Positions 4,001-59,998 of a stretch of 64,000 bases of DNA are shown here, piece after piece (position 1 is the stretch's first letter; each line of letters begins with the position of its first letter). The notes beneath the pieces were generated by a model, which saw only the letters and a list, made by a program, of their open reading frames with translations, did no database searches and was not told the origin of the DNA. The DNA lies in assembly GCA_963281255.1 (NCBI GenBank), contig OY725492.1, positions 5,149,571-5,213,570 of the forward strand, read 5' to 3'. A program made the position numbers and the translations under genes. The DNA comes from Aphrocallistes beatrix (Eukaryota > Porifera > Hexactinellida > Sceptrulophora > Aphrocallistidae).

Positions 4001-4330
4001 ATGAATACCTCGCAGGGACAGAACAGGCATAAATATATTGGAATATTTAATGTCCGTTATGAAGACAATGCGTGTACTTCTAAATTTCTGAATACATACA
4101 AGTCATTTGTAAATTTAAATAAAAATAGATTACCTTTGCTGAGTATAGATTTCCTGGTCTATGACAGATTAATTCCAGGAGAGCGAAGACATTTCAACAA
4201 TTTAAGGAAGCAATTATTTACAAGTACTCCAAGAAAAGCATTTCAAGTTGAAATTAATCGCTTCAATAAACGGAAATGGAAGAGGAAACACGATTTAAAG
4301 AGAAAACAAAGTAGCTCAAACAATCACTAA
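4001..4330 (+). CDS. FNKR-family protein, copy 1 (short, no tail)
   Basis: 109 residues, single exon. The start MNTSQ matches the usual family start. The core is recognisable: LLSIDFLVYDRL (about 46-57), FNNLRKQLF (about 65-73), TPRKAF, then NRFNKRKWKRKHD (about 86-98). It ends almost immediately after the basic stretch, so it is a tail-less version. TATATAAAA stands about 66-74 bases upstream of the ATG. It is one of only two members on the plus strand and lies at the left edge of the array, where members are most diverged. Nuclear location is inferred from the basic stretch; the biochemical role is unknown. Confidence 0.75.
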   Translation: MNTSQGQNRHKYIGIFNVRYEDNACTSKFLNTYKSFVNLNKNRLPLLSIDFLVYDRLIPGERRHFNNLRKQLFTSTPRKAFQVEINRFNKRKWKRKHDLKRKQSSSNNH

Positions 4331-4609
4331 AACTCATTCAAGATTAATGAGCCAAGATATCACTTACACTAATGTATTACAGTTACTCGGGATATGATGC
4401 TGGAGGTACTATACGGTTCCCATAAATATCCACTGTCCTTATGTGATGCAGTTTTTTAATGTACCACAAAACTTTGGATAAAGTATTTGTTTTGAGACAT
4501 TTCTAATTTATGTTAATTCTAGTTGAATACATATTGTAATCATTTCCTCCATTACAACATTCAATTACTTGTAATATAAAAATTGTTACTTATATCCAAA
4601 ATGTAAATA

Positions 4610-4797
4610 CAGTCGATTCCGCTTAATAGGGTCACATCGGTCAGAGGACATTTTGCCCCGATTAAGCGAAGAACCTTATTAACCGAAAATATTCTGTATT
4701 AGCATCTATGTGTGAGAGTTATTCCGGTCCTGCCAAAAGTGGCCCGTTTAAGCGGTTGACCCGATTGAACAGTGAACCTATTAAGCGGACTCTACTG
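4610..4797. mobile_element. Pogo-like MITE, 188 bp (second type)
   Basis: Ends are CAGTCGATTCCGCTTAATAG and ...CTATTAAGCGGACTCTACTG, flanked by TA at 4608-4609 and 4798-4799. Internal words such as CCGATTAAGCG repeat in both directions. No coding capacity. A diverged copy is at about 53235-53395. Confidence 0.85.
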
Positions 4798-5445
4798 TAA
4801 TTACATTTACCAAAACTGACTACTAATTCAGTAATAGATTTAATAAATCCCATAATAAATCTAACAATATGGATTTTATTAAACTCGTCTCATTAAATTC
4901 AAAAACTTCGGTGGGAGAACTTGTTAAACTTTGTTAATATCAAACCACTTATAGTTATTATCAAATCAAAACCCCAAGGGGGTTTTAGTGGATAACATGG
5001 TTAAACAAGTTCTTAGTCAAAAACACCTTTTGAAATTTTTAAATTCTGCCCATTTTACGGAAATTTACCTATTTTTTTTAAAGCACACTTTAAATCTTAT
5101 AAATTATCTGAATCCCCATTCAGTACTCAGTAGAAATGCAACTAAATTACACACAATCTCATCATAGATGATGACGCCATTCCAACTTTTAATATTAAAC
5201 ATCAGCAGCAAGCAATGAAATACAATTTAAATAAATACAAGTACATTATGCAGAGTTGGTTTGAAGGGTATGGTGGAAATAGTACAAAAACCGGAAATAG
5301 TTCGACTTTCCAAAAAAGGAAATAGTTCACATGAAAACAACTATTAATCTTAATGATAAAAAGTCGAACTATTTCCTAAATCTGCAATTCGAACCATTTC
5401 CTTTTTCGGAAATTCGAACCATTTCCGCATTACCGTTTGAAGCTG
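4798..5445. other. Non-coding interval with an inverted repeat at ~5283-5430
   Basis: No gene is seen. At about 5283-5430 the word GGAAATAGTTCGAC and its reverse complement GTCGAACTATTTCC occur several times as close inverted and direct copies, which could fold or mark an old small element. The rest is AT-rich without structure I can name. Confidence 0.4.
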
Positions 5446-5757
5446 TTAGTGTATGGTACGTTTCAGATCTCGATTCCTCTTCCAAGCCCGCTTATTGAAG
5501 AGATTAGTCTGTTTTCTCAAAGCATCTGCTGGGATAAACTGGAATGATTTATAACCGAGATAAGTGAATCCTATTTTCTTTCTAGATGTTAGTTTCCCAT
5601 AGCCTCCAAAATCAATACGAAGTCTCCCAGCAACTAATGCCACAAAGGAATTGAATTTGCTGAGAAACTCATCAGTGCAACTTGATCTAATCCTTTTCAC
5701 TCTGAAATGTTTAACATCAGAAAATTTCTGTTTTCTAACTTTAGGTAGTGAAGGCAT
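5446..5757 (-). CDS. FNKR-family protein, copy 2 (diverged, tail-less)
   Basis: The frame stays open upstream to 5790, but the first in-frame ATG on the minus strand is at 5757, giving about 103 residues starting MPSLPKVRKQ. The core is diverged but present: LRIDFGGYGKL, then IPADAL, then NLFNKRAWKRNRDLK. TATAAATA at about 5802-5810 lies some 45-50 bases upstream, which fits this start. Like copy 1 it ends just after the basic stretch. It belongs to the old, diverged left flank of the array. Confidence 0.65.
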   Translation of the reverse strand: MPSLPKVRKQKFSDVKHFRVKRIRSSCTDEFLSKFNSFVALVAGRLRIDFGGYGKLTSRKKIGFTYLGYKSFQFIPADALRKQTNLFNKRAWKRNRDLKRTIH

Positions 5758-5810
5758 TTGGAGGATATGAATTGCACTGTTGACTTCCAAGCATAAACAG
5801 AATATTTATA

Positions 5811-7140: not shown

Positions 7141-7833
7141 CTAAATTTCAAGGAGTCTACTTATTTCCCGACCAGACTGCCGTGAAAGTGTTGAATTTGC
7201 ATCAAAGGAAAGAAATGTTGAATTATCAGCAATTTGATTAGAATGGCTGTCACTACTGTTGATAGTCCAGGAGCCGTGAGTAGATTCTCTGAGTATAGAC
7301 ATATCTGATTGACTTTTTTCTATTATTGGGCTGTACTGATCGAAATTAGGTGCTGCGGTCTGCTTTAGAAGGAGATTTGGTATAGTCTGAAGTCCACTAT
7401 TCGTTTGCACTTCTGGTTCGTCATATCCCATGGTAACATCTGTAAGTAGTTGTATGTTATCAAAGCTGTAAAGCGATTGGTGATCTGCATTGCTTGGTTT
7501 AAGTGAAGAGTGTTGTAGTTTCTTAGATTTCGGTTTTGAATCGTATTTTCTTTTCCATTTCCTTTTATTGAATCGATTAGTTTCAACTTTAAATGCATTT
7601 TCTGGAATGGATACGAATGATTTCTTCCTTAAATTCTCAAATTCTTTTTGTTGGATCCTATCTAGTGTGCCATACACAGAGAAATCGATAGATAATTGTA
7701 ATAAATCCGCTGTATTTAACCTGACACAGGATCTGTATTGGTACAGAAACTTAGTGGCATGAGTATGATCTAGAATATGAACACTAAATGTTCCAATATC
7801 AATTCTTTTGCAATTTCTCTCTGAGGTATTCAT
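7141..7833 (-). CDS. FNKR-family protein, copy 3 (long unique tail)
   Basis: 230 residues, single exon, start MNTSE. The core covers LQLSIDFSVYGTL (about 45-57), EFENLRKKSF (about 64-73), SIPENAF (about 75-81) and NRFNKRKWKRKYDSK (about 86-100). The remaining 130 residues are polar (Ser, Asn, Gln, Asp) and resemble no other tail in the window, although the first part after the core (SKKLQHSSLKP) still matches the usual linker. The TATA sequence GTATATATAG at about 7880-7889 is some 50 bases upstream. Likely intact. The tail looks disordered, as in many transcription or chromatin co-factors; that is inference. Confidence 0.75.
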   Translation of the reverse strand: MNTSERNCKRIDIGTFSVHILDHTHATKFLYQYRSCVRLNTADLLQLSIDFSVYGTLDRIQQKEFENLRKKSFVSIPENAFKVETNRFNKRKWKRKYDSKPKSKKLQHSSLKPSNADHQSLYSFDNIQLLTDVTMGYDEPEVQTNSGLQTIPNLLLKQTAAPNFDQYSPIIEKSQSDMSILRESTHGSWTINSSDSHSNQIADNSTFLSFDANSTLSRQSGREISRLLEI

Positions 7834-8177: not shown

Positions 8178-8447
8178 CAGATTTGTATGTGCTCCAGAAG
8201 GATACGATGCATAATATTGGTGGTTGTTTGTGGTCATAGCGGCAAATTTTTGTTGCAGGCTAGAATTCCTTGGATTTCCTTGGAAGAGATGACGCTTGTA
8301 AAGTTTTCCAAAAAATGACAGACAGATGTATTTAGAGATATTATCTACCTTATAATTAATCAATGTGAGCCTAGGCGTTTGAAGGACGCCTTTAGCGGAC
8401 ACAAAGTGTCCGCCAGCCGCGCAGCGCAAGCAAGCGAAGCGCGCTTG
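8178..8447 (+). mobile_element. Repeat plus 3' end of a Helitron-like element (fragment A)
   Basis: 8178-8290 is a second copy of sequence at 180-300. From about 8312 it turns into the 3' end of the ~530-bp Helitron-like family: a GGCGGACAC / GTGTCCGCC hairpin (with C-to-A style decay in the left arm), then GCGCAGCGCAAGC...GCGCGCTTG at 8447. The 5' two-thirds are missing. Confidence 0.65.
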
Positions 8448-8691
8448 TTAAATATATTTAATAAAACATAGAGAAAGCAAGAATTATGACAATAAATAGA
8501 GCAAAACGATGAATTGTTCTAAAATAATTATTCTATTCAACAGTAGTGCTGCTATTTCAGAATCTTTATCATCTATTATCCCTAATTTTCAAGTATCTAA
8601 GCTGAGAGATGATCGAAGAGATTTGTATGGATTTCACTAATAAGATTTGTCTGACTCAGTACTTAATTCTGTCATCATACTCGAATCGTAG
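8448..8691. other. 3' flank of FNKR copy 4
   Basis: This flank recurs downstream of copies 8, 10, 14 and 16. It continues the A-type tail reading in another frame (SSMMTEL.TES) past the B-type stop. Confidence 0.5.
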
Positions 8692-9156
8692 TTACTCTCT
8701 TCTTGTTCCACCAAAAGGTCTTGATAATTGTGTGTATTGTTTTTGTTCTTCGTAACGAAATGTTGCATTGAATGCCTGATCCATCATACTCCATTGTAGC
8801 TCAGTGTATGTAACTTGTTGATAATGAATGATTGGTTTTAGTGGAGATTGTTTTGGTTTCTTTGATTTCGATTTTGAGTCGTGTTTCCTATTGATTTTCA
8901 GTTTTTTGTTGCGTTTACTTTTTGTTGAAAATGCATACTCTGGGATGGTAAGGAATGCCTGTTTCCCTAACTCGTTGAATTCTCTTCGTTGCTTCACATT
9001 TAATTTCCCGTACATAGAGTAATTTATATACAGCAATAGTATTCCCATTCTGTTCAACCATACAAATGTTTGGTGTTTTTTCAGAAATGTATCTGCATTT
9101 GTATCGTCTTTAATATGGACATGAAATTTTAGGTGCTGTCTCTGTGAATTATTCAT
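8692..9156 (-). CDS. FNKR-family protein, copy 4 (B-type tail)
   Basis: 154 residues, start MNNSQRQHLKF. The core is the B variant: LLLYINYSMYGKL (about 40-52), EFNELGKQAF (about 59-68), IPEYAF (about 71-76) and KRNKKLKINRKHDSK instead of NRFNKRKWKRK. The tail TYTELQW...SRPFGGTRRE is shared with copies 8 and 14. In the DNA, the last part of this tail is homologous to the A-type tail but is read in another frame. The promoter has TATATATATA about 35-45 bases before the ATG, but a TA-flanked MITE (9201-9679) has landed exactly at its upstream edge. Confidence 0.75.
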   Translation of the reverse strand: MNNSQRQHLKFHVHIKDDTNADTFLKKHQTFVWLNRMGILLLYINYSMYGKLNVKQRREFNELGKQAFLTIPEYAFSTKSKRNKKLKINRKHDSKSKSKKPKQSPLKPIIHYQQVTYTELQWSMMDQAFNATFRYEEQKQYTQLSRPFGGTRRE

Positions 9157-9200
9157 GTCAGAAGATTGTAAATTCCCGTCAGATTTTGTTTATATATATA

Positions 9201-9679
9201 CTCTAATCGGACATAAGTATTTGAAATCCTTACTATCTTCCATCATAATTAGTGATAAAGTGGGTCTATTCATGAGTGAAATGTAATCAAACTGTTATAG
9301 ATATTATAATTTCGATTTAAAATTCATATTCTACACATTCGAATTACTCAGGTTAGATGCCTTCTATTGATTAATTCACTTCCAAGGTTAAGATTCATCA
9401 AACTATGCCATTTGTGCCACTACTCGTCATCATGTCTAATGGTAATGAGAATGAAAAGTGGCACAAAGTTACATAGATTGATAATAATTCAACTTATGAA
9501 TGAATATAACAATAGAAGGCTTCAAACCTGAGTAATTCCTATATGTAGAATATGAATTTGAAATCGAAATTACAGTATCTGTTACAGTTTGGTTACATTT
9601 CTCTCCACGAATAGATCCACTTTATAACTAGTTATGATGGAAAATAGTAAGAATTTCAAATACTTTTGTCCGGTTAGAG
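9201..9679. mobile_element. TA-flanked foldback MITE, 479 bp, inserted at the copy 4 promoter
   Basis: Long inverted arms begin CTCTAATCGGACATAAGTAT and end with the near reverse complement ...CCGGTTAGAG, with TA on both sides. The paralogous promoters of copies 10 and 16 lack it, so the empty site is visible (TATATATA then TGTGTGTTAACC). At copy 8 only 33 bases of it remain (17133-17165). A weaker relative may lie at about 20870-21110. Confidence 0.8.
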
Positions 9680-10352: not shown

Positions 10353-11079
10353 TTACACATCAAACAATTCGAATTCAGGAGGTTCTTTGCGGTAATAATT
10401 TCTATCGAACTCAAATGGAAATGGATGAAGAAGGTTGGACTGTTGTGTGAGTTCATAAGGCATTGGAGATGTGTTAGTTTTCGGATTTTCTTTCTGTTTT
10501 GAACCGTATTGAAAAATACTTCTGCCTGACTCAGTAGTTTGTTATGTCATCATACTCGTATCGTTGTTATAATCTTCTTGTTTCCAAAGGTCTTGATAAT
10601 TGTCTGCACTGTTTTGCTCTAACGAGAAGTTGCATATAAGTGAAAGATAATCAGTATTTGTTTGTTCGTTGATATCTGATCCGTCAAATTCAATTGTAGC
10701 TGAATGTAGGTAAGGAGAGCTATCACGTTCTTGTTGAAAATGAAGAATTGGTTTTTGTGAAGAATGTTTGGGTTTCAGTTTTGAGTCGTGTTTCCTCTTC
10801 CACTTACGTTTATTGAAACGATTAATCTCGACTTGAAATGCATTCTCTGGGATGGAAGTGAATGATTGCTTCCTTAAATTGTTGAATTCTCTTTGCTGTT
10901 TCACATCTAGTGTCTCATACGAAGAAAAATCTAGATACAACAATAGTATTTCCATTCCCTTTACCCATACAAAATGATTGGTATTCCTTCAGAAATCTAT
11001 CAGCATATGCTTTGTCTCGAGAATGGACATTAAATTTCCCAATGTCATTATTTCGGTGCTGCATCTGTGAGATGTTCAT
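10353..11079 (-). pseudogene. FNKR-family copy 5, A-type, broken by one indel and one stop
   Basis: The expected ATG is at 11079 (MNISQMQHR...). One extra T in a TTTT run at about 10968-10971 shifts the frame after KEYQSF; the shifted-back frame then runs from 10955 through an intact core (LLLYLDFSSYETL, EFNNLRKQSF, SIPENAF, NRFNKRKWKRKHDSK). A GAA-to-TAA change ends it at 10542, although homology to the A tail (QYGSKQKENPKTNT, EPPEFELFDV) continues to 10353. Two independent lesions favour a true pseudogene, but the homopolymer indel could be an assembly error. Confidence 0.7.
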
Positions 11080-11294: not shown

Positions 11295-11762
11295 GTAACG
11301 AATTGATTGAAGAAACTGCCAGGCGCAGAAAGCTGATTTTTGGCATGCGGGAGTCCTTTGGCTATGGCTCCACTAAGTTCTGAACTCAGAGCAAAATGTC
11401 TACTCATCATGGAATTCTGACGTCATTGTCACATTTTAAAAGTTAAGCAATATAGTTATTCGAGCATAACTCAGCCATTATAGGAGATAGATGGCTGAAA
11501 TTTTAATAGAATCTGTATACTAATATACCTCACATATGATGCAACTATCATCAAAAAATGATGACTCATCACTTTGTTATGACGTCATCATTACGCATCA
11601 AAATTTTAAAAATTGACAAATTTGGTGTTTTTTCGAGTGATATCGATTTTAAATCTAAGATGGACATATTTAGAGATGATATCTCCCTTATAATTAACCG
11701 ATGTCACCTCCAGGCGACCGAAGGGAGCCTCCGGCGGACACAAAGTGTCCGCTAGCCGCGCA
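11218..11762 (+). mobile_element. Helitron-like element B, 3'-truncated
   Basis: It starts TCCTTACTATTAAAACTCG after an A, carries a (TA)n run at about 11257-11291, the conserved AACGAATTGATTGAAGAAAC and TGACGTCAT blocks, and the terminal hairpin, but stops at CCGCGCA, before the final GCAAGC...CTTG. It lies about 140 bases upstream of copy 5, beyond that copy's TATA box (about 11139-11149). Confidence 0.75.
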
Positions 11763-12434
11763 TTTTTATTAATTCGTTAAGAATTTTAGTTTTTCCAAAT
11801 TTCACGAGTAATATTGTCTCAGAATTTATAACTGTTTATTCCAACCTGATTGGCTAGAAATTGTTTTGCAACATAGAAGACATCACATGCAAATTATATG
11901 TATGAAAATTTCCAGAGTCTAATTGGTTGACAAAGGTCAGTCATCGCTTCTTCATATTCTAAGATTCCCTACAAGTAATGACTAGAAATAACCTTTCACT
12001 TTGATAAGTCCAGATAACTATCCACTATGTTGCAATACAATTGCTTATGTCCACTTTCTAAATGCCAGTAGAATATAAGCCTAATTAGTATGTGAATGTA
12101 TTCAGATCCGAGAAGGTTAAGCACCGTAATTTACAATTAATTTCCTCACTAAATTCACATTAATCATCAGCACCAGAGAAGATAGGGACATACTCTACCC
12201 TCAAGGTTTAAAAACTAAACTAACCTTTAAACGAAGGAGGAACTGTCAAATAGAACTTCACCCGTTTACTTGAATTACTCTCAAAACAGCTTCATCGATT
12301 GCCATACAACAAAAATCTATGAACATTTAATGTTGTTTACAAATCTACATAGAAACTCTACAGTTAATTTCATGTAACACACAGTTCCCTCATATCTCAT
12401 TGTTATCCTAGTGGTTGATAGGATGGCTCTGTGC
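11763..12434. other. Intergenic sequence and conserved 3' flank of copy 6
   Basis: No gene is seen. From about 12200 the sequence matches the 3' flank of copy 5 (10060-10352) and, from about 21130, that of copy 11. The rest is unique AT-rich sequence. Confidence 0.5.
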
Positions 12435-13151
12435 TTACACATCAAACAATTCGAATTCAGGAGGTTCTTTGCAGTAATAATATCTATCGAACTCAAATAG
12501 AAATGGGTGAAGAGAGTTGGACTGTTGTGTGAGTTCATTAGGCATTGGAAATGTGTTAGTTTTCGGATTTTCTTTCTGTTTTGAACCGTATTGAAAATGA
12601 CGTAGTCCTGACTCAGTAGTTTGTTCTGTCATCATACTCGTATCGTTGTTATAATTTTCTTGTTTCAAAATGTCTTGATAATTGTCTGCACTGTTTTGGT
12701 CTAACGAGAGGTTGAATATAACTGAAAGATGTTCAGTATTTGTTTGTTCGTTGATTCCATCGCATTTTATTGTAGCTGTATGTAGGTAAGGAGAGCTATC
12801 ACGTTCTTTTTGGTAATGAAGGATTACTTTTTGCGGAGAATGTTTTAGTTTCTTTGGTTTCGGTTTTGAGTCGTGTTTCCTCTTCCACTTACGTTTATTG
12901 AAACGATTAATCTCATCTTGAAATGCATTCTCTGGGATGGAGATGAATGATTGCTTCCTTAAATTGTTGAATTCTTTTTGCTGTATCCTATCTAGTCTTC
13001 CATACACAGAGAAATCTATTTTTAGCTCTGACAGACTGGTGTACTTTACAAATGATTGGTATTTTTCCAGAAATTTGGCAGCATATGCATTATCTAGAAT
13101 ATCAACTCCAATTTTTTTCTCATCGTTATTTTGGTACTTTAAAGTATTCAT
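12435..13151 (-). CDS. FNKR-family protein, copy 6 (A-type tail)
   Basis: 238 residues, start MNTLKYQNND. Core: LKIDFSVYGRL (about 43-53), EFNNLRKQSF (about 60-69), SIPENAF (71-77), NRFNKRKWKRKHDSK (82-96). The A-type tail follows: PKPKKLKHSPQK, SPYLHTATIKCDG, NSADNYQD, DTSMMTEQTTESG, QYGSKQKENPKTNT and the end EPPEFELFDV. CTATAAAAC lies some 60-70 bases upstream. The front half and upstream sequence are nearly identical to those of copy 12, whose tail is different, so a duplication breakpoint lies inside this reading frame. Confidence 0.8.
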   Translation of the reverse strand: MNTLKYQNNDEKKIGVDILDNAYAAKFLEKYQSFVKYTSLSELKIDFSVYGRLDRIQQKEFNNLRKQSFISIPENAFQDEINRFNKRKWKRKHDSKPKPKKLKHSPQKVILHYQKERDSSPYLHTATIKCDGINEQTNTEHLSVIFNLSLDQNSADNYQDILKQENYNNDTSMMTEQTTESGLRHFQYGSKQKENPKTNTFPMPNELTQQSNSLHPFLFEFDRYYYCKEPPEFELFDV

Positions 13152-13507
13152 TCAGTTTTGTGTACTTTATTATTGGGAAATTGTTTGTTATGTTCAAAGG
13201 TTTGATTGTTTTATAGTATCTTTAGATTTGTGCTGGAAATTACGAATATTTTTGGAAACTAAGTTTTAATAATTTTAAATAATTCTTATACCCACAAAAA
13301 ATTATACTTTCCTAATTTTGAAGCAAAGTGACAACTAAATATTAAATCAGTAATATTGCCATAGCATTTATGAACGGTTAATTCCAACCTAATTACATCT
13401 CTACAATACTGAAATATTTGCATTAATGATCGTATCTAAGAAGCCTGACACAGCCAATGGAAGGTGGTTTTTTATGTATGCAGCCATCCTTGTGAAAGTT
13501 AGAAAGA

Positions 13508-13560
13508 GAGAACAACGAAGAAGTTGAGATATGGAGTATACCAACTTCTTCGTTGTTCTC
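13508..13560. repeat. Perfect 19-bp hairpin (copy 1 of 4)
   Basis: GAGAACAACGAAGAAGTTG is followed after 15 bases by its exact reverse complement. The same hairpin is at 18166-18218, 27824-27876 and 31914-31966. Truncated versions holding only the left arm occur at about 15500 and 29310. It may be the tip of a small inverted-repeat element or an RNA hairpin; nothing in the sequence decides. Confidence 0.7.
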
Positions 13561-13969
13561 CAAATGTTCTCACGTGACACATCCACACCTCTTCTAACTT
13601 GAATTGGCTCTTTAAGGTTCGCAATGGTATCCTCGGTTGGTTTCCCAATTCAATGTCTGTGAAATACGATCACTCTCAGATAATTTCATTGGTCTCCCAG
13701 CCCCTTCTTCTGGTCCGACTTTTCACCATGTTGAAGCATGGTACGCACATTATGAACTAATTTCAAAGAGAAGAAGTATCCGCTAATCGTGAAGAATTAG
13801 TAAACATATTTGACTGTATTTGGTGATTAAACATACAACACAACAAATAATACAAACTACATTTCAAACATAAAACATTTAAATCAGTGTTGTTGTTGTT
13901 GTTGTTGTTGTTGTTGCTTTTAAATGTTGCATGGATCTGGCATATCTGGAAATACATTCCATGGATCCT

Positions 13970-14593
13970 CTAGAATCTCATCATACTTGGAGTACCTCCT
14001 GAGCTGAAGCTAGCGTCAATCGAATCAGCTGTTTTCAGGAAGAATATTAATCTCAGCACATTCACTGAAGTTGAATGTGCAAACACCTCCTCTTCAGGAT
14101 TTGGGTGTACAAACGCCTCTTGGTTGTACAGATTCCTTGGTTGTGCTAATGCCTCTTGCTTGTACAGATAACTTGGTTGTGTAAACAACTCTTCAGGATT
14201 TGATTGTAATGTACTCTCTGATGCTTCAACTCTTGTTTCAGTTTGACGCATATTAACCAAGGTTCGACTTTGCTTTTGAGTTTTGATGTTTGATGCACTC
14301 TTGTCTTGTCTCGGAAGTTTCTTTGTTTTACGTTTTGAGTCGTGTTTCCTCTTCCACTTACGTTTATTGAAACGATTTGTCTCGACTTGAAATGCATTCT
14401 CTGGGATTGAGATGAATGATTGCTTCCTTAAATTGTTGAATTCTTTTTGCTGTATCCTATCTAGTCTTCCATACACAGAGAAATCTATTTTTAGCTCTGA
14501 TAGACCGGTGTACTTTACAAATGATTGGTATTTTTTCAGAAATTTGGCAGCATATGCATTGTCTACTTTACTTTGGTGCTTTGAAGTATTCAT
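13970..14593 (-). CDS. FNKR-family protein, copy 7 (C-type tail)
   Basis: 207 residues, start MNTSKHQSK with a short front part. Core: LKIDFSVYGRL, EFNNLRKQSF, SIPENAF, NRFNKRKWKRKHDSK. The C-type tail is KLPRQDKSASNIKTQ, TLVNMRQTETRVEAS, then two to three copies of a 12-residue unit (LYNQEA.A.PR) that is expanded in copy 17. The end is shifted: after SMMRF the DNA still holds, in another frame, the NVFPDM ending seen in copy 19. A Helitron-like element (14614-15143) sits 20 bases upstream of the ATG and pushes the TATA box (TTTTATAG at about 15183-15190, plus-strand reading) about 590 bases away. Confidence 0.65.
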   Translation of the reverse strand: MNTSKHQSKVDNAYAAKFLKKYQSFVKYTGLSELKIDFSVYGRLDRIQQKEFNNLRKQSFISIPENAFQVETNRFNKRKWKRKHDSKRKTKKLPRQDKSASNIKTQKQSRTLVNMRQTETRVEASESTLQSNPEELFTQPSYLYKQEALAQPRNLYNQEAFVHPNPEEEVFAHSTSVNVLRLIFFLKTADSIDASFSSGGTPSMMRF

Positions 14594-14613
14594 TCAGTAA
14601 TTGTGTACTTTTA

Positions 14614-15143
14614 TCCTTACTATTAAAACTCGATGATTGTATATATATATATGTAACGAATTGATTGAAGAAACTGCCGGGCGCAGAAGGCTGATTTTTT
14701 GCATGTGGGAGTCTTTTGGCTATGGCTCCAGTAAGTTCTGAGTTCAGAGCAAAATGTCGACTCATCATGGAATTATGACGTCATTGTCACATTTTTAAAA
14801 GTTAAGCAACACAGTTATTCGGGCATAACTCAGCCATTATTGGAGATAGAAGGCTGAAATTTTAATAGAATCTGTATACTAACATACCTCACATATGATG
14901 CGACTTTCATCAAAAAATGATGACTCATCACTTTGTTATGACGTCATCATTACGCATCAAAATTTTAAAATTGACAAATTTGGTGATTTTTTGAGTGATT
15001 TCGATTTTAAAACTAAGATGGACATATTTAGAGATGATATCTCCCTTATAATTAACAATGTCACCTCCAGGCGACCGAAGGGAGCCTCCGGCGGACACAA
15101 AGTGTCCGCCAGCCGCGCAGCGCAAGCAAGCGAAGCGCGCTTG
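14614..15143 (+). mobile_element. Helitron-like element C, complete, with empty site
   Basis: 530 bp from TCCTTACTATTAAAACTCG to GAAGCGCGCTTG. The paralogous site upstream of copy 13 (about 28945) lacks it: joining the flanks GTACTTTTA and TTATTATGAAATTG reproduces that site with one substitution. So the element went in between A and T with no target duplication. The last ~80 bases hold a 9-bp GGCGGACAC hairpin and an imperfect GCGC...GCGC palindrome. It has no coding capacity. Confidence 0.85.
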
Positions 15144-15868
15144 TTATTATGAAATTGTTTGTTATGTTCAAAGGTTTGATTGTTTTATAGTATCTTTAGA
15201 TTTGTACTGGAAATTACGATTATTTTTGGAAACTAAGTTTTAATATTTTTGAATAATTGTTATTAACCCATTAAATTATGCTCTCCTAATTTTGAAACAA
15301 AATAACAACTAAATATTAAATCAATAATATTGCCATAGCATTTATGAACGGTGATTTCCAACCTAATTTGCTATGAACATCTCTACAATACTGAAATATT
15401 TGCATTAATTATCGTATCTAAGAAGCATGACACAGCCAATGGAAGGTGGTTAACAGTGTCTCTATGTATGCAGCAATCCTCGTGAAAGTTAGAAAGAGAG
15501 AACAACGAAGAAGTTGAGTTTTCCAAGAGAGAGCAGACGGATGGGCGTAGGTACGTACGTACTTATCGACGGACGTTGTACGCCGATCATGACATAAGAC
15601 ATCTTCTATACTCGGAGCTGTACTAAAATAATAGACTTGGACAATGGATCTGAACTAGAATAGATTGAATGGATCTGATCTTGCTTAGAACTCCGATGCG
15701 TATATGCATGAATGGTAATCAATACTAAATTATAGTTAATTGCTGGTATACCAATCTTTAGTTGAGCTTTGCATTTAACCAATTTTCCAATACTATTTAC
15801 GTATTCCTAATAGTATGTTTCTGCATACAAATGATATGATGTCATATGTGATATATCACCATTGGATA
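15144..15868. repeat. Duplicated upstream region of copy 7
   Basis: It matches 28945-29673. It includes the copy 7 TATA region, the half-hairpin at about 15500 and a truncated piece (about 15530-15640) of the dispersed repeat ending CGATCATGACATAAGACATC. No gene is seen. Confidence 0.7.
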
Positions 15869-16386
15869 TCCTTACTATTAAAACTCGATTAATGTGTATA
15901 TATGTGTGTAACGAATTGATTGAAGAAACTGCCAGTCATATAAAGCTAATTTTTGGCATGTGGGAGTCTTTTGGCTATGGCTCCAGTAAGTTCTGAGCTC
16001 AGACGAAAATGTCGACTCATCATGGAATTATGACGTCATTGTCACATTTTTAAAAGTTAAGCAACACAGTTATTCGGGCATAGCTCAGCCATTATAGGAG
16101 ATAGAAAGCTGGAATTTTCTGTATACTAACATAGTTCACATATGGTGTAACTATCATCAAAAAATGATGACTCATCACTTTGTTATGACATTACTCATCA
16201 AAAATTTTAAAAATTGATAAATTTGGTGATTTTTCGTGCGATATAGATTATAACAGTAGGACAGACGTATTTAGAGATGTTATCTCCCTTATATTTAACC
16301 AATGTGACCCCAGGCAACCGAAGGGAATCTCCGGCGGACACAAAGTGTCCGCCAACCGCGCAGCGCAAGCAAGACAAGCGCGCTTG
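15869..16386 (+). mobile_element. Helitron-like element D
   Basis: Complete ends (A|TCCTTACTATT...GCGCGCTTG|TAATT). It shares its insertion site and flanks with element E (29674-30193), so it was carried along by the 7-kb duplication. Confidence 0.8.
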
Positions 16387-16624
16387 TAATTAATAAAAAA
16401 ACATAGAGAAAGCAAGAATTATAGCAATTAATACAGCAAAACGATGAATTGTTCTAAATTAATTATTCTATTCACAGTAGTGCTGCTATTTCAGAATCTT
16501 TATCATCTATTATCCCTAATTTTCAAGCATCTGAAGTCGAGGGATGATCGGAGAGATTTGTATGAATTTCGACATTATGATTTCTGACTAAGTAGTTAAT
16601 TCTGTCATCATACTCGTATCGTAG

Positions 16625-17089
16625 CTACTCTCTTCTTGTTCCACCAAAAGGTCTCGATAATCTTATGTACTGTTTTGGTTCTTCGTAACGAAATGTTGCA
16701 TGGAATGTCTGATCCATCACATTCCATTGTAGCTCAGTGTATGTAACTTGTTGATAATGAAGGATTGGTTTTAGTGGAGAATGTTTTGGTTTCTTTGGAT
16801 TCGGTTTTGAGTCGTGTTTCCTCTTAATATTCAGTTTATAGAATCGTTTACCTTTCGTTGAAAATGCATACTCTGGGATGGTGAGGAATGCCTGTTTCCC
16901 TAACTCGTTGAATTCTCTTCGCTGCTTCACATTTAATTTCCCGTACATAGAGTAATTTATATACAGCAATAGTATTCCCATTCTGTTCAACCATACAAAT
17001 GTTTGGTGTTTTTTCAGAAATGTATCTGCATTTGTATCGTCTTTAATATGGACATGAAATTTTAGGTGCTGTCTCTGTGAATTATTCAT
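16625..17089 (-). CDS. FNKR-family protein, copy 8 (B-type tail)
   Basis: 154 residues, start MNNSQRQHLKF, almost identical to copies 4 and 14. It has the B-type core (INYSMYGKL, EFNELGKQAF, IPEYAF) with KRFYKLNIKRKHDSK in the basic position, then the TYTELQW tail ending FGGTRRE. The promoter has TATATATAT followed by the 33-base remnant of the MITE seen intact at copy 4. It is the paralog of copy 14 in the segmental duplication. Confidence 0.75.
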   Translation of the reverse strand: MNNSQRQHLKFHVHIKDDTNADTFLKKHQTFVWLNRMGILLLYINYSMYGKLNVKQRREFNELGKQAFLTIPEYAFSTKGKRFYKLNIKRKHDSKPNPKKPKHSPLKPILHYQQVTYTELQWNVMDQTFHATFRYEEPKQYIRLSRPFGGTRRE

Positions 17090-17132
17090 ATCAGAAGATT
17101 GTAAATTCCCGTCAGATTTTGTTTATATATAT

Positions 17133-17165
17133 ACTCTAATCGGACATAAGTATTTGAAATTAGAG
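17133..17165. mobile_element. Remnant of the 479-bp MITE
   Basis: CTCTAATCGGACATAAGTAT plus a few bases is joined directly to TTAGAG. This equals both ends of the 9201-9679 element with everything between deleted. Confidence 0.7.
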
Positions 17166-17323
17166 TATATGTCAACCAATTGTTCTACTCTTCTTCTAAG
17201 CATAGCATCCTATAGGTCAGATAGAATCTCTTTATAATCTTTGTAAACCACTCTTATATTTTACATACAGTATTTCTTATGCATTATTTTTCATCAAGCC
17301 TATACTTGAAATAAGATAGCTAG

Positions 17324-17790
17324 TTAGTTATAATCTTCTTGTTGCAAAAGTTGTTGATCATTGTCTGCACTGTTTTGGTCTAACGGGATGTTGCATATAA
17401 GTGAAAGGTAAACAGTACTTGTTTGTTCGTTGATATCTGATCCATCACATTCTATTGTAGCTGTATGTAGGTAAGGAGAGCTATTACGTTCTTGTTGATA
17501 ATGAAGAATTGAATTTTGTGTGTTTTGGTTTCTTTGGTTTCGGTTTTGAGTCTTGTTTCCTCTTCCAAATACGTTTATTGGAACGATTAATCTCATCTTC
17601 AAATGCATTCTCTGTGATTGAGATGAATGATCGCTTCCTTAAATTGTTGAATCATTTTTGCTGTATCATATTTTGTCTTCCATACACATTGATGATTGAT
17701 GTTTTTTTAGAAATTTATCAGCATATGCTTATCTAGAATATTGACTTCAATTTTTCTAACATCATTACGTTGGTACTTTGAAGTATTCAT
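17324..17790 (-). pseudogene. FNKR-family copy 9, broken
   Basis: ATG at 17790 (MNTSKYQRNDVRKIEV) is soon followed by a frameshift and deletion that remove most of the VYG part. Pieces of the core (LRK.SF, AFEDEINR, KRKQDSK) appear in other frames. From about residue SILHYQQER onward one frame recovers the A-like tail and stops after LLQQEDYN at 17324. The same lesions are present in copy 15, so the gene was dead before the duplication. Confidence 0.75.
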
Positions 17791-18165
17791 TCAGTAATTG
17801 TGTACTTTTATTACTATGAAACTGTTCGTTATGTTCAAAGGTTTGATTGTTTTATAGTATCTTTAGATTTGTGCTGTAAATTACGATTATTTTTGGAAAC
17901 TAAGTTTTAATGATATTAAATAATTCTTATCCACCCATTAAAAATGGGCTTTCCTAATTTTGAAACAAAGTGACAACTAAATATTAAATCAATAATATTG
18001 CCATAGCATTTATGAACGGTTAATTCCAACCTAATTTGCTATGAACATCTCTACAATACTGAAATATTTACATTAATTATCGTATCTAAGAAGCATGACA
18101 CAGCCAATGGAAGGTGGTTAACAGTGTCTCTATGTATGCAGCCATCCTTGTGAAAGTTAGAGAGA

Positions 18166-18218
18166 GAGAACAACGAAGAAGTTGAGACATGGAGTATCCC
18201 AACTTATTCGTTGTTCTC
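18166..18218. repeat. 19-bp hairpin (copy 2 of 4, one mismatch)
   Basis: Same stem as at 13508-13560, with one base changed in the right arm (CAACTTATTCG). Confidence 0.65.
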
Positions 18219-18729
18219 CAAATGTTCTCACGTGACACACCCACACATCCACACATCTTCTAACTTGAATTGGCTCTTTCAGGTTCGCAATGATATCCTC
18301 GGTTGGTTTCCCAATTTAATCTCTGTGAAATACGATCACTCTCTGATAATCTCATCGGTCTCTCAGCCCCTTCTTCTGGTCCAACTTTTCACCATGTTGA
18401 AGCATGGTATGCACATAATGAACTGATTTCAAAGAGACATCGTACAAATATCTGTTTAAATGAATGTTCATTGCTATAAGATGTTTAGAGACCTTCTCTC
18501 TTGATTCGTTGCAGTTTTAAGTACTATCCCTCAAAATATGAAGAAATATCTAACCTCATGTAATTAATAGCTAGTAAATGATTAATTAAAAAATCACAGC
18601 CGACAAACTGATAGTGCAGCTCCATTAAGTAACTTGACTCGTAGGGTATTTGCATAGTATACATCTTTAATTGCGTTTTATAATTAAACAATTTACTCCA
18701 TGTCAACCAATCAAAATTTTAGAGAGTCA

Positions 18730-19090
18730 TTGTAATCTAGCTTAGAGAGTCATTATAATCTATTTATATACATTGAGTCAGGTATAATCCTTATTAGTCA
18801 ATAAAATGGAAGCCAACTGTAATGTTAAAACCCTGGATTCTGATTGACCATACATTTTGACACCACTGAAAATGTGTAAAATTTTCTAGAATTTGGACCC
18901 AGGTTCAAATCTCCACCATATAAGGAATATATGGTCCAAATTTGGTACAATTAGTCAAATAGGATTTCCAGGAACGAGCAGACGGAAGTACGTAGGTACG
19001 TACGTTCTTATGGACGGACGTCGCAAGCTGATCATGACATAAGACATCTCCTATGCTAGGAGCTGCACTAAAATAATAGACTTGGACAAT
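18730..19090. repeat. Dispersed repeat with GGACCCAGGTTCAAATCTCC core
   Basis: It recurs at about 32530-32850 and 35154-35526, in part at 15530-15640 and 29335-29450, and as a diverged cousin at 23195-23605, 39700-40100 and 44930-45330. The 35.2-35.5 kb copy ends, on the minus strand, with TCCTATATATTCAAACGC, close to the 5' end of the Helitron-like element L. This suggests a Helitron-like element, but no copy shows both ends. Confidence 0.55.
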
Positions 19091-19446
19091 GGATCTGATC
19101 AGAACTCCAATGCGTATATGCATGAATGGTGATCAATGCTAGAATATAGTTAATTGCTGGAATACCAATCTTTAATTGAGCTTTGCATTTAGCCAATTTC
19201 CCAATACTTTTTAAAACAACATAGCAAAAACAAGAATTATAGCAATTAATACAGCAAAACGATTAATTGTTCTAAACGAATTATTCTATTCACAGTAGTG
19301 TTACTATTTCAGAATCTTTATCATCTATTATCCCTAATTCTCAAGCATTTGAAGTTGAAGGATGATCGGAGAGATTTGTATATATTGCGCTAATAAGATT
19401 TCTGTCTGACTCAGTAGTTAATTCTGTCATCATCCTCGAATCGTAG

Positions 19447-19936
19447 TTAGTCTCTTCTTGTTGCGAAAGGTCTTGATAATTGTGTGTACTGTTTTTGTTC
19501 TACATAACGAGTGGTTGTATCGAAGATGTTCAGCATTATTTTGCTCGTTGATGTCTTATCCATCACACTCCATTGTAGCTCAGTGTATGTAATTTGTTGA
19601 TAATGAATTATTGGTTTTAGTGGAGAATGTTTTGGTTTCTTTGGTTTCGGTTTTGAGTCGTGTTTCCTCTTAATTTTCAGTTTATTGATGCGTTTACTTT
19701 TCGTTGAAAATGCATACTCTGGGATGGTGAGGAATGACTGTTTCCCTAACTCGTTGAATTCTCTTCGTTGCTTCACATTTAGTGTCCCATACACAGAGAA
19801 ATTTATATACAGCAAAGGTATTCCCATTCTATTCAACCATACAAATGTTTGGTGTTTTTTCATAAATGTGTCTGCCTCTATTTTGTCTTTAATAATGGAC
19901 ATTAAATATTCGGTGCTGTTCCTGTGAATTATTCAT
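19447..19936 (-). pseudogene. FNKR-family copy 10 (B-type), frameshift near the start
   Basis: The family ATG is at 19936 (MNNSQEQHRIFNVH), but one extra T in the word GTCCATTATT makes a stop right after. A downstream ATG at 19902 opens 151 residues with a complete B-type core (LLYINFSVYGTL, EFNELGKQSF, IPEYAF, KRINKLKIKRKHDSK) and the tail TYTELQW...SRPFATRRD. If translation can begin at the second ATG, only about 11 residues are lost and the protein may still work; otherwise it is a pseudogene. Its paralog, copy 16, lacks the extra base. Confidence 0.6.
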
Positions 19937-19999
19937 ATCTGAAGATTGTAAATTCCCGTCAGATTTTGTTTATATATATGTGTGTTAACCAATTGTTCT

Positions 20000-24800: not shown

Positions 24801-25050
24801 AATAATTTGCCATCATTTACCATCATTTACCATCATTTACCATCATTTACCATCATTTACCATCATTTACCATCATTTACCATCATTTACCATCATTAGC
24901 AATCATTTACCATCATTTACCATCATTAACCATCATTTACCATCATTTACCATCATTTACCATCATTAACCATCATTAGCAATCATTTACCATCATTTAC
25001 CATCATTTACCATCATTAGCAATCATTTACCATCATTTACCATCATTAAT
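24801..25050. repeat. Tandem decamer array (CATCATTTAC)n, ~25 units
   Basis: About 25 units of 10 bp, with variants CATCATTAAC and AATCATTTAC. A shorter run is at about 23690-23790. Unit T2 has only a remnant at about 40180-40210, so the array expanded or shrank after the duplication. Confidence 0.9.
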
Positions 25051-26510: not shown

Positions 26511-26779
26511 AATCCATGAATTGAAAAAGTAGCCTCTACAAATGAAACTGTATCCTGAAGAATACAGTTCCTAGGGTAAAGACAATATTAAATAGAAGTT
26601 AGCCAATCAAGTTAGGCTTGTAATCTGATATTAAGCTTAGAGCTGTAATGACTAGAATCTGAAATCGATAAATTATTATTATTATTTATTGTACAACCCT
26701 TGTAATATTGATCGATAATATTCTCAAGGAGTGATTAATTAAACAAATACATGCAATATCAACAAGAAAATGTACATTT

Positions 26780-31913: not shown

Positions 31914-31966
31914 GAGAACAACGAAGAAGTTGAGACATGGAGTATCCCAACTTATTCGTTGTTCTC
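31914..31966. repeat. 19-bp hairpin (copy 4 of 4, one mismatch)
   Basis: Same as the copy at 18166-18218, within S2. Confidence 0.65.
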
Positions 31967-42410: not shown

Positions 42411-42414
42411 ATTT

Positions 42415-43101: not shown

Positions 43102-43144
43102 TTCTGATTGTAAATTCCCGCCAGTTTTTTTCTTTTTATATCGT

Positions 43145-46330: not shown

Positions 46331-47014
46331 TTACACATAGTATGGATCTAACATATCTGGAAATACATTGCATGGATGTTCTTCTAGAATTTCATCATAC
46401 CTACTGTAGCTTACGTCAGTAGAACCATCTGTCTCAGAAATAATATTGTTCTCAACAAATTCACTACAAGTTGGTTCTGTATTACACTTGTAGCTCTGGT
46501 GATTCGTTGTGTTACCATGCTCTGTCTCTCTTAATAGATGAGATGTTACGAATATCTCTTCAGGATTTGGTTGCAATGTACTCTCTGATACTTCAACTCT
46601 TGTTTCAGTTTGACGCATATTAACCAAGGTTCGACTTAGCTTTTGAGTTTTGATGTTTGGTGCATTCTTGTCTTGTCTCGTAAATTTCTTTGTTTTAGGT
46701 TTTGAGTCGTATTTCCTCTTCCATTTACGTTTATTGAATCGATTTGTCTCGACTTGAATGGCATTTTCTGGACTAGACACGAAAGATCTTCTCCTTAATT
46801 TAGTGAATTCTATTTTCTCTTTTTCATTCAGTGTCCCATACCCAGCGAAGTTTATTTTTAGTATACATTGACAACCTTGCTCCCACTCAGTAAACAATTT
46901 ATATCTTTTAATGAAAATAAATGCGTTTGTTTTGTTTGTAATTCTGATACTAAATCTTCTAATATCTGATTTGTCCTGTTCCTGTAGAGGAGTCATACAT
47001 GGAGTCTGTATCAT
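46331..47014 (-). CDS. FNKR-family protein, copy 19 (C-type, diverged)
   Basis: The first in-frame ATG is at 47014 (MIQTPCMTPLQEQDKSD), giving 227 residues; a second ATG at 46996 fits the family start better. Core diverged: LKINFAGYGTL, EFTKLRRRSF, SSPENAI, NRFNKRKWKRKYDSK. The tail has the C-type linker (RQDKNAPNIKTQ, VNMRQTETRVEVS) and the ancestral ending DEILEEHPCNVFPDML that is frameshifted away in copies 7, 13 and 17; it has no 12-residue repeats. TATATATA repeats begin about 15-30 bases upstream of the first ATG, which also favours the second ATG. Confidence 0.75.
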   Translation of the reverse strand: MIQTPCMTPLQEQDKSDIRRFSIRITNKTNAFIFIKRYKLFTEWEQGCQCILKINFAGYGTLNEKEKIEFTKLRRRSFVSSPENAIQVETNRFNKRKWKRKYDSKPKTKKFTRQDKNAPNIKTQKLSRTLVNMRQTETRVEVSESTLQPNPEEIFVTSHLLRETEHGNTTNHQSYKCNTEPTCSEFVENNIISETDGSTDVSYSRYDEILEEHPCNVFPDMLDPYYV

Positions 47015-50926: not shown

Positions 50927-51358
50927 TTATCTAGGATAATTATAATACAGAAATTGACTATAATCAAGTTTAGGATCTAGAGCTAGGATTTGAGCGAGAA
51001 TATTAGGCTCGTCTAGCATAGATTCTTCGATATCTCCAACATGCATATTACTGTCAATGTAAACTGAATCATGTTCCCTCTTCCACTTGCGTTTATTGAA
51101 ACGATTAATCTCGACTTTAAATGCATTCTCTGGGATGGATTTGAATGATTGCTTCCTTAAATCGTTGAATTCTCTTTGTTCTATCCTATCTAGTCTTCCA
51201 TACACAGAGAAATATATATTTAGCTCTGACAGACCAGTGTCTAACTTTACAAATGATTTGTAGTCTATCTGAAATTTAGTAGCATGTTCAATATTTAGAA
51301 TATCAACATCAAATGTTCTAGCATCTTTATTTTGGTATTGTCTCTGTGAAGTGTTCAT
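50927..51358 (-). CDS. FNKR-family protein, copy 20 (short own tail)
   Basis: 143 residues, start MNTSQRQYQNKDARTFDVDI. Core: LNIYFSVYGRL, EFNDLRKQSF, SIPENAF, NRFNKRKWKREHDS. The tail is only about 40 residues (HVGDIEESMLDEP, ALDPKLDYSQF) and acidic rather than basic-polar. The promoter is the common one: TATATATATG about 35-45 bases upstream, GACGGGAATTTAC, then a TCTAC/GTAGA cluster at 51420-51735. Confidence 0.75.
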   Translation of the reverse strand: MNTSQRQYQNKDARTFDVDILNIEHATKFQIDYKSFVKLDTGLSELNIYFSVYGRLDRIEQREFNDLRKQSFKSIPENAFKVEINRFNKRKWKREHDSVYIDSNMHVGDIEESMLDEPNILAQILALDPKLDYSQFLYYNYPR

Positions 51359-57918: not shown

Positions 57919-58398
57919 TATACTTGTATATTTTAGGCCCTAACCTTCGTAGGCCTGGGGCACAGTGTCTCTAGTGCCCTATGGATAATCCGGCCCTGAT
58001 TTAGAATCTAGATGGAAGCTTGAAAGCTAGCATATTTGCGTTGACAAATTCATTAAAATATGATGAATATTTATGAATTATTCAAAATCTCAAACATTAG
58101 TGCAGATTATTCCCAAAAGTGGTTAAAAGGTTGCTCATATTATATATCTCTAACATTACTCAGTCCCTAAGCGAAATATCAAATATTTTTTCATTATTTT
58201 AGTTTCAAATTTTGAGTAATTCATTGATAATTCATGGATTAGTCAGCTTAGATATTTGCATATACATATAAAATATTAAGTATATTGATAGGTGTTAGTA
58301 TCGCATCTTAATTTCAGATTAGAAATATCTTTTATAATGTAAGTCAGTGGTAGACCCCTTTTCACTCTGTAGAATCCAAATGTCAAATTCCTCAATCA

Positions 58399-58614
58399 CA
58401 TACATGCCAACCTGAGTCATGATAAAAGCGGGACGCAGCGTTGAATTTCGCGGGACATGGCGGGACGCAATAGAAAAGTATTATACATAGAGTAAAAAAA
58501 GCGGGACATAATGGGGAAATTTCATGTAAAAGCGGGACACTCGAGAAAATTAGGTCAAGAGAAGGGTGAAAAAAGCGGGACGTCCCGCCAAAAACGGGAC
58601 AGTTGGCAAGTATG
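58399..58614. mobile_element. MITE with CATAC(A/T)TGCCAAC ends, 216 bp
   Basis: Ends CATACATGCCAACCTG and CAGTTGGCAAGTATG, flanked by CAATCA on both sides (58393-58398, 58615-58620). The inside repeats GCGGGAC. A lone end of the same kind is at 61982-62018. The superfamily is unclear. Confidence 0.8.
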
Positions 58615-58620
58615 CAATCA

Positions 58621-59300
58621 CCCAACCCTCTTCATTAACCATAATATAACGTGTGGATACAATAAAATGGTTTGAGTTAGAGAATTACTGTGTAACTCAG
58701 AATGGAAAATTTTATGAAATATTACTCAGATGAAATTTGAACTAGATTAAGGTGATTTCCTAAAATTGTAAACATTGTGGTTGTACTTTCGTTCTCGAAT
58801 GTTTATTCTTTTTGAGTAAACAAACATACGTAGATTAAAATAATTATAGAATGCTGGAAATAGTAAATAAGATTTAAACAGAAATATTATCTAACTATTG
58901 AATCCTTATACGAAACTGAGGTAAGCCAGGTAAATACGTATTATATCATATTGAAACTAAATTTCAGTTCCGAAACTTTTATGGTAAAACCACATTGTAA
59001 TTAGTCATGTTGAGAATAGAAATAATAATTTATAATTGGCTAATATTTCATAATATACTTTGTATAACTGTATATACGTGACATTATTCTCAATAATGAT
59101 GATCAAATTTTGTGTCAAAAGCGCCTGAAATTTTTTAGCCCAAATTTTAAATCAGAAATAATTTACTTCTAGGGAATCGAAAATTGGGATATGTTCTTGG
59201 AAATTTCAGAAAGGAATTGTACCTAATTTTTTTAGAATTAAGTTTTTCATTCATATGCGATGTCGAATATATAATATTAGTAAGGAATTTTTAGTTCCAA
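58621..59300. other. AT-rich interval upstream of copy 21
   Basis: No gene, element end or repeat family is recognised here. Confidence 0.5.
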
Positions 59301-59356
59301 ATTTATATATATATATTGGACAACTCATACTTGTAAACAAATACAAACATTTTAAA

Positions 59357-59998
59357 ATGAGTGCACCAATCAAACAACATAACTCAGACACGAGAAACTT
59401 TACTGTTTCTATCCGCAACAAAGCATGTGCTACTAAATTGCTAAAAAAATACAAATTGTTTGTTAAGTTTAAAACTGAAGGAACTGGTGAATATAGATTA
59501 ACTATTGACTTCACTGGATATGGGAACCTCGACTCAAGAGAGAAAATAGAATTCAACAGTTTACGGAAACAGTCCATTGTCTCTACCCCGGAGAATTATA
59601 TCCAGGAAGAGACGAATCGATTCAATAAACGTAGGTGGAAGAGGAAATACGATTCTAGATTGAAATCTGAATCTAAGGAATCTAGAAAAGTGGAAAACAC
59701 AGATAGATTCCCCAATCCAACACAGGTTCATTGGAATAATCAAAATGTTGACGTTACAAGTGGATTTGTTGTTAACAACAAAGTTAACTCTGTGTACACT
59801 GAGTCTTACCTTCCTCATTCCTTCCCTCAATACCATTTTATCCCGCCCAGAGAAAGAGCTGTGGAGATGCCAGTGCTGCATGGAACTCAAGATTTATGTA
59901 TGTACAGATACTGCGGAGGATTTGCTGACCATAATCTGTTTGATTTGTTCCCCTCCGTTGGACCATATAACTCAAGGTGGTCCAACCTAATACAATAA
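59357..59998 (+). CDS. FNKR-family protein, copy 21 (right edge, diverged)
   Basis: An in-frame ATG exists at 59255, but a TATATATATATAT box at about 59304-59316 lies between it and the ATG at 59357, and the family start pattern fits the second (MSAPIKQHNSDTRNFTVSI). That gives 213 residues. Core: LTIDFTGYGNL, EFNSLRKQSI, STPENYI, NRFNKRRWKRKYDS. The tail (about 110 residues, with VHWNNQNVDVTSGF, FPQYHFIPPRER, FDLFPSVGPYNS) is unique and richer in aromatic residues than the others. No lesions are seen. It is on the plus strand, between the array and the NCAPG exons, and could lie inside an NCAPG intron. Confidence 0.8.
   Translation: MSAPIKQHNSDTRNFTVSIRNKACATKLLKKYKLFVKFKTEGTGEYRLTIDFTGYGNLDSREKIEFNSLRKQSIVSTPENYIQEETNRFNKRRWKRKYDSRLKSESKESRKVENTDRFPNPTQVHWNNQNVDVTSGFVVNNKVNSVYTESYLPHSFPQYHFIPPRERAVEMPVLHGTQDLCMYRYCGGFADHNLFDLFPSVGPYNSRWSNLIQ

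Follow-up and report, generated by a model that had tools for sequence, protein, structure and literature searches.

One of the closest described systems comes from Aphrocallistes vastus, whose genome report (PMC10282587) describes tandem expansions of single-exon genes, with three larger clusters on one scaffold. One of these is a 50-gene block, 38 of its genes single-exon, that carries AIG1 domains and that its authors link to pathogen recognition; it is the only cluster of the three for which a functional prediction was possible. A term search of another genome paper, on Oopsacas minuta (PMC10280926), met no mention of GC content or of orphan, lineage-specific, taxonomically restricted, tandem or intronless genes. 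Here we analysed a 64,000-nucleotide stretch of the Aphrocallistes beatrix genome, hereafter the window, which corresponds to positions 5149571-5213570 of contig C6 in an assembly of 28 contigs and 100.5 Mb (a glass sponge genome has been estimated at 141 Mb, PMC10232365). The window carries a 21-copy array of small intronless genes whose family is undescribed as far as the databases searched go. Its members join a conserved head, for which a confident ferredoxin-like fold is predicted, to tails that have been exchanged between copies, so that heads and tails have different histories, a point that is new relative to the first reading of this DNA. Diverged copies are under purifying selection and recent copies are without clear constraint. 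The array resembles the AIG1 cluster of Aphrocallistes vastus in being a large, mostly single-exon, lineage-expanded tandem block in a small animal genome, but differs from it in that no AIG1 row was returned by Pfam for any family member here.

Copy number and extent of the family

Copies were counted with a core profile built from 29 aligned family cores (alignment A2), used to scan the window in six frames at an independent E-value below 0.05. The 24 profile rows merge into 21 places, 18 of them open copies and three broken. As the profile was built partly from window copies, their recovery is expected; the reversed window gave no matches to the same profile, which rules out chance resemblance. 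The initial annotation had counted about 21 copies, which held, and 17 open ones, where we count 18. Core and tail of each copy form one open frame, and the open reading frame listing gives these as single-exon frames.

Two copies, one at each edge, lie on the plus strand: 4001-4330 (intact, 109 residues, tail almost absent, 124 bits) and 59357-59998 (intact, diverged, with NLFDLFPS in its tail). The other 19 are on the minus strand. Among them 5446-5757 is intact and diverged (103 residues, without tail, 97 bits), 7141-7833 is intact with a tail of its own (230 residues; its core was used for the structure model), and 50927-51358 is intact with its own short tail (143 residues). Five intact copies make up a short class of about 150 residues in which KRNKKLK stands in place of FNKRKWK, namely 8692-9156, 16625-17089 and its segmental duplicate 30433-30897, and 19447-19902, with a shortened N-terminus, and its segmental duplicate 33198-33701. 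The broken copies, each in two pieces, are 10542-11079, 17505-17790 and 31255-31540, the last a segmental duplicate of the second. Longer intact copies include 12435-13151 (238 residues, tail ending in FELFDV), 21256-21996 (246 residues, tail resembling that of 12435), 26780-27466 (228 residues, inside a 98.2% identical block common to 41223-43102) and 42415-43101 (228 residues, its tail 99% as in 26780). A second tail type is seen in 13970-14593 (intact, 207 residues, N-terminus shortened), 28375-28929 (intact, 184 residues) and 37693-38457 (intact, 254 residues), and 46331-47014 is an intact mosaic of 227 residues in which a diverged core is joined to a tail stretch shared with other copies. 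A 36-bp tandem repeat at 37755-38020 (minus strand), of 7.4 units, gives a 12-residue repeat in the tail of 37693, and recurs in 13970 (2.6 units) and 28375 (2.1 units).

The span of 4001-59998 first given for the array is right for the window, and the family extends outside it, on C6 and on other contigs. Searching the genome with family proteins, together with the open reading frame list, gave at least 37 loci, as counts of large families are lower bounds, on contigs C1, C2, C6, C8, C13 and C18. Three more places lie on C6 in the left flank of the window (5146851, 5136240, which is partial, and, from the open reading frame list, a remnant at 5141035-5141229), and 13 further loci are on other contigs. 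These are C1:11819656, C13:3676783, C18:1049816 (frame broken), C2:837994 and C2:841498 (in open frames 301 and 254 residues long, the tail of one being rich in P, G, Q and Y), C8:4257907 and C8:4260567, and a C8 group at 4403548, 4406466, 4418286-4418954, 4420423, 4436881-4437406 (two pieces) and 4442495. In the frame at C8:4418286-4418954 (L075:901-1590, minus strand) two domains follow one another, and the frame stops immediately past the second basic stretch; two domains in one open frame mark the domain as a module. In the 29-core alignment, the pattern F-x-V-x-I ... L-x-I-D-F ... E-F-x-x-L ... E-x-x-R-F-N-K-R-K can still be read in diverged members from other contigs, and at these loci the core has been kept without recent exchange of the kind seen inside the array.

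Known families gave no match. No Pfam row reached its cut-off for eight full family proteins. For the 29 cores, 17 Pfam families appeared at E-values up to 1, the lowest being 0.0033 (COE1_DBD, in one member); cut-offs were displayed for the first member alone, and its rows fail them. Because the rows differ between members, we treat the weak rows, COE1_DBD (a transcription-factor DNA-binding domain), ThaI, POPLD and RED_C, as chance. Sequence searches of the PDB gave a best E-value of 2 with one protein and of 0.63 with the A2 profile, and no Rfam family reached its gathering threshold in the window. A collection of 5.8 billion proteins, searched twice by profile, yielded 11 and 8 proteins, 14 different ones, and all 14 were located in the window or in loci of the same genome. 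The view that the family is undescribed is therefore borne out in Pfam, the PDB and this protein collection, with only same-genome proteins returned by profile. These results suggest a family restricted to one lineage, a scope on which the presence of relatives in the protein collection bears. The word undescribed refers here to these databases and not to the literature.

Predicted head, exchanged tails and selection

An AlphaFold model of the 7141 core has a strand at residues 13-20, a helix at 23-32, strands at 37-40 and 46-50, a helix at 59-72, a strand at 73-76 and then a helix at 80-98, with a predicted local distance difference test (pLDDT) score of 88-97 over the core. A second model, of another member (C8 type), has a strand at 2-7, a helix at 10-23, strands at 24-28 and 33-38, a helix at 48-61, one bridge residue and a helix at 64-98; its pLDDT is 90-94 across residues 1-80 and its fourth strand is weak. 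The order of elements is the same in both, a ferredoxin-like beta-alpha-beta-beta-alpha(-beta) body followed by a basic C-terminal helix, and the full beta-alpha-beta-beta-alpha-beta order of that fold, judged by order of elements alone, is found in the 7141 model. Structure prediction gives the core a confident ferredoxin-like body, and the basic character that had been ascribed to it from the letters is supported: the body ends in a long helix of strongly basic sequence (NRFNKRKWKRKxD), and the alignable members have a basic stretch. In the short class FNKRKWKRK is lost and KRNKKLK is found instead. The head probably binds DNA or RNA.

Fold searches of the PDB with the models gave no convincing solved structure among the 50 matches listed per search, and a viral fold search likewise gave nothing convincing among the matches listed, the best E-value being 0.13. 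The strand and helix order of the model body is that of ferredoxin-like alpha/beta proteins in the PDB, including ribosomal S6 permutants, LsrG and antibiotic-biosynthesis monooxygenases, and ACT-type domains. The RRM, including the ORF1-type RRM of retroelements, is similar in its beta-alpha-beta-beta-alpha-beta plan and in probable nucleic-acid binding, but no RRM row appeared in Pfam for the 29 cores, and strands 1 and 3 of the family (FxVxI and LxIDF), compared by eye with the RNP1 and RNP2 motifs, are without the aromatics of those motifs. Several weak Foldseek rows for LAGLIDADG homing endonucleases (I-SmaMI, I-OnuI) were among the matches listed for the C8-type model, at an E-value of 0.45 or worse, but no LAGLIDADG row was found in Pfam among the 29 cores.

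Self-comparison of the window indicates how the array has grown. The stretch 15141-20464 is a segmental duplication shared with 28946-34223 (94.4% identical); adjoining it, 12695-14627 is duplicated at 27004-28959 (95.4%), and 25593-27467 is duplicated at 41223-43102 (98.2%). Much of the sameness among inner copies is due to this segmental duplication at 94-98% identity. Further blocks differ by 9-16% in DNA with their copies still open (8321-9227 with 16260-17160, and 16394-17321 with 32980-33896). Superimposed on these duplications is the exchange of tails. About 60 codons of 46331 (residues ~91-150) are 92-94% identical in best local match to 13970, 28375 and 37693, whereas in the core its nucleotide identity to these three copies falls to 66-69%, and its later tail differs again. 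The cores of 12435 and 28375 are 97% identical in nucleotides and their tails have no detectable similarity. The switch points, at residues ~83-94 in 46331 and ~98 in 12435 and 28375, lie in or beside the basic helix. A group of tails comprising those of 12435, 21256, 26780, 42415, 10542, the C1 copy and, in part, the short class has stretches in common at 67-99%, and is unrelated to the 28375 group. The initial annotation described a kept core with strongly diverging tails; the core is indeed kept, but the tails are not simply faster, as stretches have been swapped beside the basic helix, and this exchange accounts for much of the pattern inside the array.

That the genes are driven by TATA boxes, as first proposed, is supported by the presence of TATAWA in the 150 bp before the start in 22 of 23 cases, compared with 25% of random window stretches of the same length; these cases are not independent, many being recent duplicates, and several matches fall inside TATATA runs. 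The 23 starts are those of the 18 open window copies, the C1 copy, C6:5146851, two C8 copies and the C13 copy. TATAWA stands mostly 38-76 bp before the ATG, and is present in diverged copies: C8a at -38, C8b at -45 and -43, 59357 from -47, 7141 from -52 and 5446 at -53. Of five starts considered separately (C13 taken from its upstream ATG, C8d, C8e, C2a and C2b), two have it, C8e and C2b, with only 80-84 bp readable upstream of C2a and C2b; for C13 and C8d no TATAWA was found upstream. AATAAA within 250 bp past the stop occurs in 4 of 23 (7141, 26780, 42415 and C8a), not above the 23% of random stretches, and polyadenylation signals therefore lend no support.

In each of 23 tails longer than 50 residues, Q, N, S, T, P and Y make up 41-53%, and net charge ranges from -10 to +9 (-7 to +4 in the last 30 residues). 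The motif LFD[VL], which was picked after inspection, occurs in 4 of 26 tails (12435, 21256, 59357 and C6:5136240, the first two homologous) where 0.042 are expected (0 of 2000 shuffles); the 26 include the broken 10542 and omit three proteins, of which one has an empty tail and the other two were given no tail by the script. A basic head with a predicted fold, followed by a tail of low-complexity composition, gives the members a transcription factor-like architecture.

Selection on the core was assessed with Nei-Gojobori proportions in 376 pairs, not independent of one another, that share at least 60 core codons, the broken copy 10542 being among the sequences. As synonymous sites are near saturation in diverged pairs, we used proportions of nonsynonymous and synonymous differences (pN and pS) with Fisher tests. 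Where pS exceeds 0.4, pN/pS is below 1 in 277 of 277 pairs (medians 0.60 and 0.64); at pS 0.2-0.4 this holds for 62 of 64 (median 0.82), at 0.1-0.2 for 15 of 18 (median 0.68), and at pS up to 0.1, the youngest pairs, for 7 of 17 (range 0.24-5.71, median 1.23). Among pairs that we chose, the 14 diverged ones have pN/pS of 0.30-0.64 (Fisher p 2.7e-15 to 0.0026) and the three young ones have 0.89, 1.16 and 5.7 (p 0.68, 1 and 0.13). The purifying selection that had been proposed for the core thus stands between diverged copies and is not apparent as clear constraint in the youngest pairs.

Median core dN/dS is 0.53 over 229 pairs, the 147 pairs with pS of 0.7 or more being left out, and some young pairs are low (12435/28375 at 0.23, 19447/33198 at 0.32). 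Alignable tails are near 1 in 13970/28375 (1.03), 10542/C1 (1.00) and 8692/16625 (1.09), and lower in 12435/21256 (0.68) and 19447/33198 (0.67). Copies 26780 and 42415 differ at 17 codons, 17 nonsynonymously and none synonymously, which has a chance of 0.009 when the nonsynonymous share of changes is taken as 76%. Differences are denser in the gene (20 of 687 sites) than in its flanks (9 of 1188). We do not claim positive selection here, since most changed sites (13 of the 20 differences) fall within the final 75 bp, where the homology block ends, and are explained by an exchanged N-terminus; past residue 30, seven changed codons are left, with a chance of 0.15.

Proposed role and alternatives

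The reading we lean towards, tentatively, is that of a family restricted to one lineage whose members are nuclear, bind nucleic acid and work like transcription factors, with effector tails that can be exchanged, their location, binding and regulatory role being what we infer. The ~90-residue head would be a ferredoxin-like body ending in the long basic helix, and this helix may serve nucleic-acid binding, nuclear localisation or both. The tail rich in Q, N, S, T, P and Y would be the variable effector part, which in some copies has, for example, LFD[VL] close to its end. The array would have grown through segmental duplication and unequal exchange, and recombination within or next to the basic-helix DNA could join one kind of head to different tails. 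New head-tail combinations would in this way keep arising, with purifying selection holding the head over longer times. Loss of FNKRKWKRK in the short class argues that the copies do not all work alike. A more specific proposal, possible though rather unlikely, is a new animal DNA-binding domain in which the ferredoxin-like body presents the long basic helix; it would be confined to one lineage, perhaps glass sponges, as a transcription-factor family of their own with tails swapped at the basic-helix DNA.

Descent from a mobile-element protein, such as one of the RRM-like ORF1 type, with the array as relics or a domesticated remnant, seems to us unlikely. A ferredoxin-like body with a basic part is the plan of some retroelement proteins too, and the spread of copies over six contigs would suit such an origin, but the Pfam rows of the 29 cores and eight full proteins include no transposon family, so that the match to a known transposon protein which the initial annotation had named as counter-evidence did not appear. 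A dispersed ~490-bp repeat recurs in the array, beside the C8 copies and upstream of the C1 copy, and a weak Tc1-like relic lies beside 26780 (25920-26246, minus strand), yet the scanned pieces, which cover part of the window, show no element gene attached to a copy. The array copies were moreover duplicated as large segments, the C1 copy has ~0.5 kb of 3' flank in common with the array (79%), and constraint and TATA boxes persist in diverged copies. Element ends around copies were looked at by BLASTN of 13 loci to the window, which brought out the dispersed repeat and the C1 flank match. A retrogene origin of the C1 copy is not favoured, as L008:137-660 matches 11764-12278 at 79% on the 3' side; no search for poly-A or target-site duplications was made. 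Similarity 270-510 bp upstream of the C1 start is the dispersed repeat, present at several window places, and says little on the origin of this copy.

It is also conceivable, and in our judgement quite unlikely, that this is a conflict or immune effector family in which the heads bind a target, while swapped tails and relaxed or diversifying change respond to a partner in mate recognition, a selfish element or a pathogen. A fast-changing array with mosaics, the median pN/pS of 1.23 in the 17 youngest pairs and the exclusively nonsynonymous codon changes between 26780 and 42415, in a gene more changed than its flanks, are consistent with this, as is the AIG1 tandem block linked to pathogen recognition in the Aphrocallistes vastus report (PMC10282587). 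Set against these are the position of most 26780/42415 changes at the homology edge, the chance of 0.15 past residue 30, and the lack of any immune domain among the Pfam rows of the eight full proteins and 29 cores.

We hold it improbable that these are chromatin-packaging or sperm nuclear basic proteins, whose basic helix would coat DNA without sequence choice and whose tails would be filler. The basic stretch of alignable members, tail dN/dS near 1 in several pairs and the net positive charge of some tails (up to +9) would agree, but packaging would not call for a globular body that is confidently predicted and keeps a hydrophobic pattern, and other tails are net negative (down to -10, with -7 to +4 in the last 30 residues). 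As improbable is a mostly decaying array, with a few edge copies as genes and inner copies as recent pseudogenes in the making, for which the three broken copies, the motif loss in the short class and the youngest pairs, without clear constraint, would speak. Against it, open copies make up 18 of the 21, also in blocks 9-16% apart in DNA, and pairs at pS 0.1-0.4 are mostly below 1 (77 of 82).

Neighbouring sequences and significance

To the right of the array, and outside the family, 62113-63970 (plus strand) holds exons of a gene resembling condensin complex subunit G (Cnd3, E-values 6.4e-11 and 4.9e-17), usable as a synteny anchor. On C6 to the left of the window, L076:2596-3711 (minus strand) is an open, hydrophobic frame of 371 residues with the look of a multi-pass membrane protein encoded in a single exon; none of its Pfam rows passes the cut-off. 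The ~490-bp dispersed repeat is found in the window at 11304-11762, 14662-15143, 15917-16386, 29722-30193, 35528-36010, 36050-36533, 36628-37110 and 61340-61824, as well as at L075:1-479; the copies given are 8 of 12 BLAST rows, 76-79% identical to L075, and around 61340-61430 the repeat has G+C-rich palindromic stretches. The Tc1/mariner-like relic downstream of 26780 has HTH_Tnp_Tc3_2 (E 0.0078) and DDE_3 (E 0.22) rows below cut-off, and the same open frame recurs at 41551-41877 (minus strand), downstream of 42415. In a stretch with C over G, arrays of a 10-bp unit (ATTTACCATC-type) occupy 23686-23787 (9.6 copies) and 24805-25047 (24.3 copies).

Contig C28 carries the mitochondrial COX1 (L028:1465-3033, plus strand), whose 523 codons include TGA 14 times and AGA 16 times and neither TGG nor AGG. 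By comparison with other COX1 proteins, we take TGA to stand at tryptophan places, AAA at a lysine place, and AGA at serine places at most of the conserved sites judged, with glycine at two. In our view this code suits a glass sponge best, a bilaterian being the less likely source. Glass sponges have a distinct mitochondrial code, according to two reports (PMC10695373, PMC11572364).

Tandem families restricted to one lineage are common, but seldom are a confident fold, diverged paralogues elsewhere in the genome and visible tail exchange found together in one of them. Should the head of this family bind DNA, it would count as a DNA-binding domain new to metazoans, and a single array would hold a natural case of head-tail shuffling among regulators. 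If it is instead a conflict family, the array would display how such genes renew themselves.

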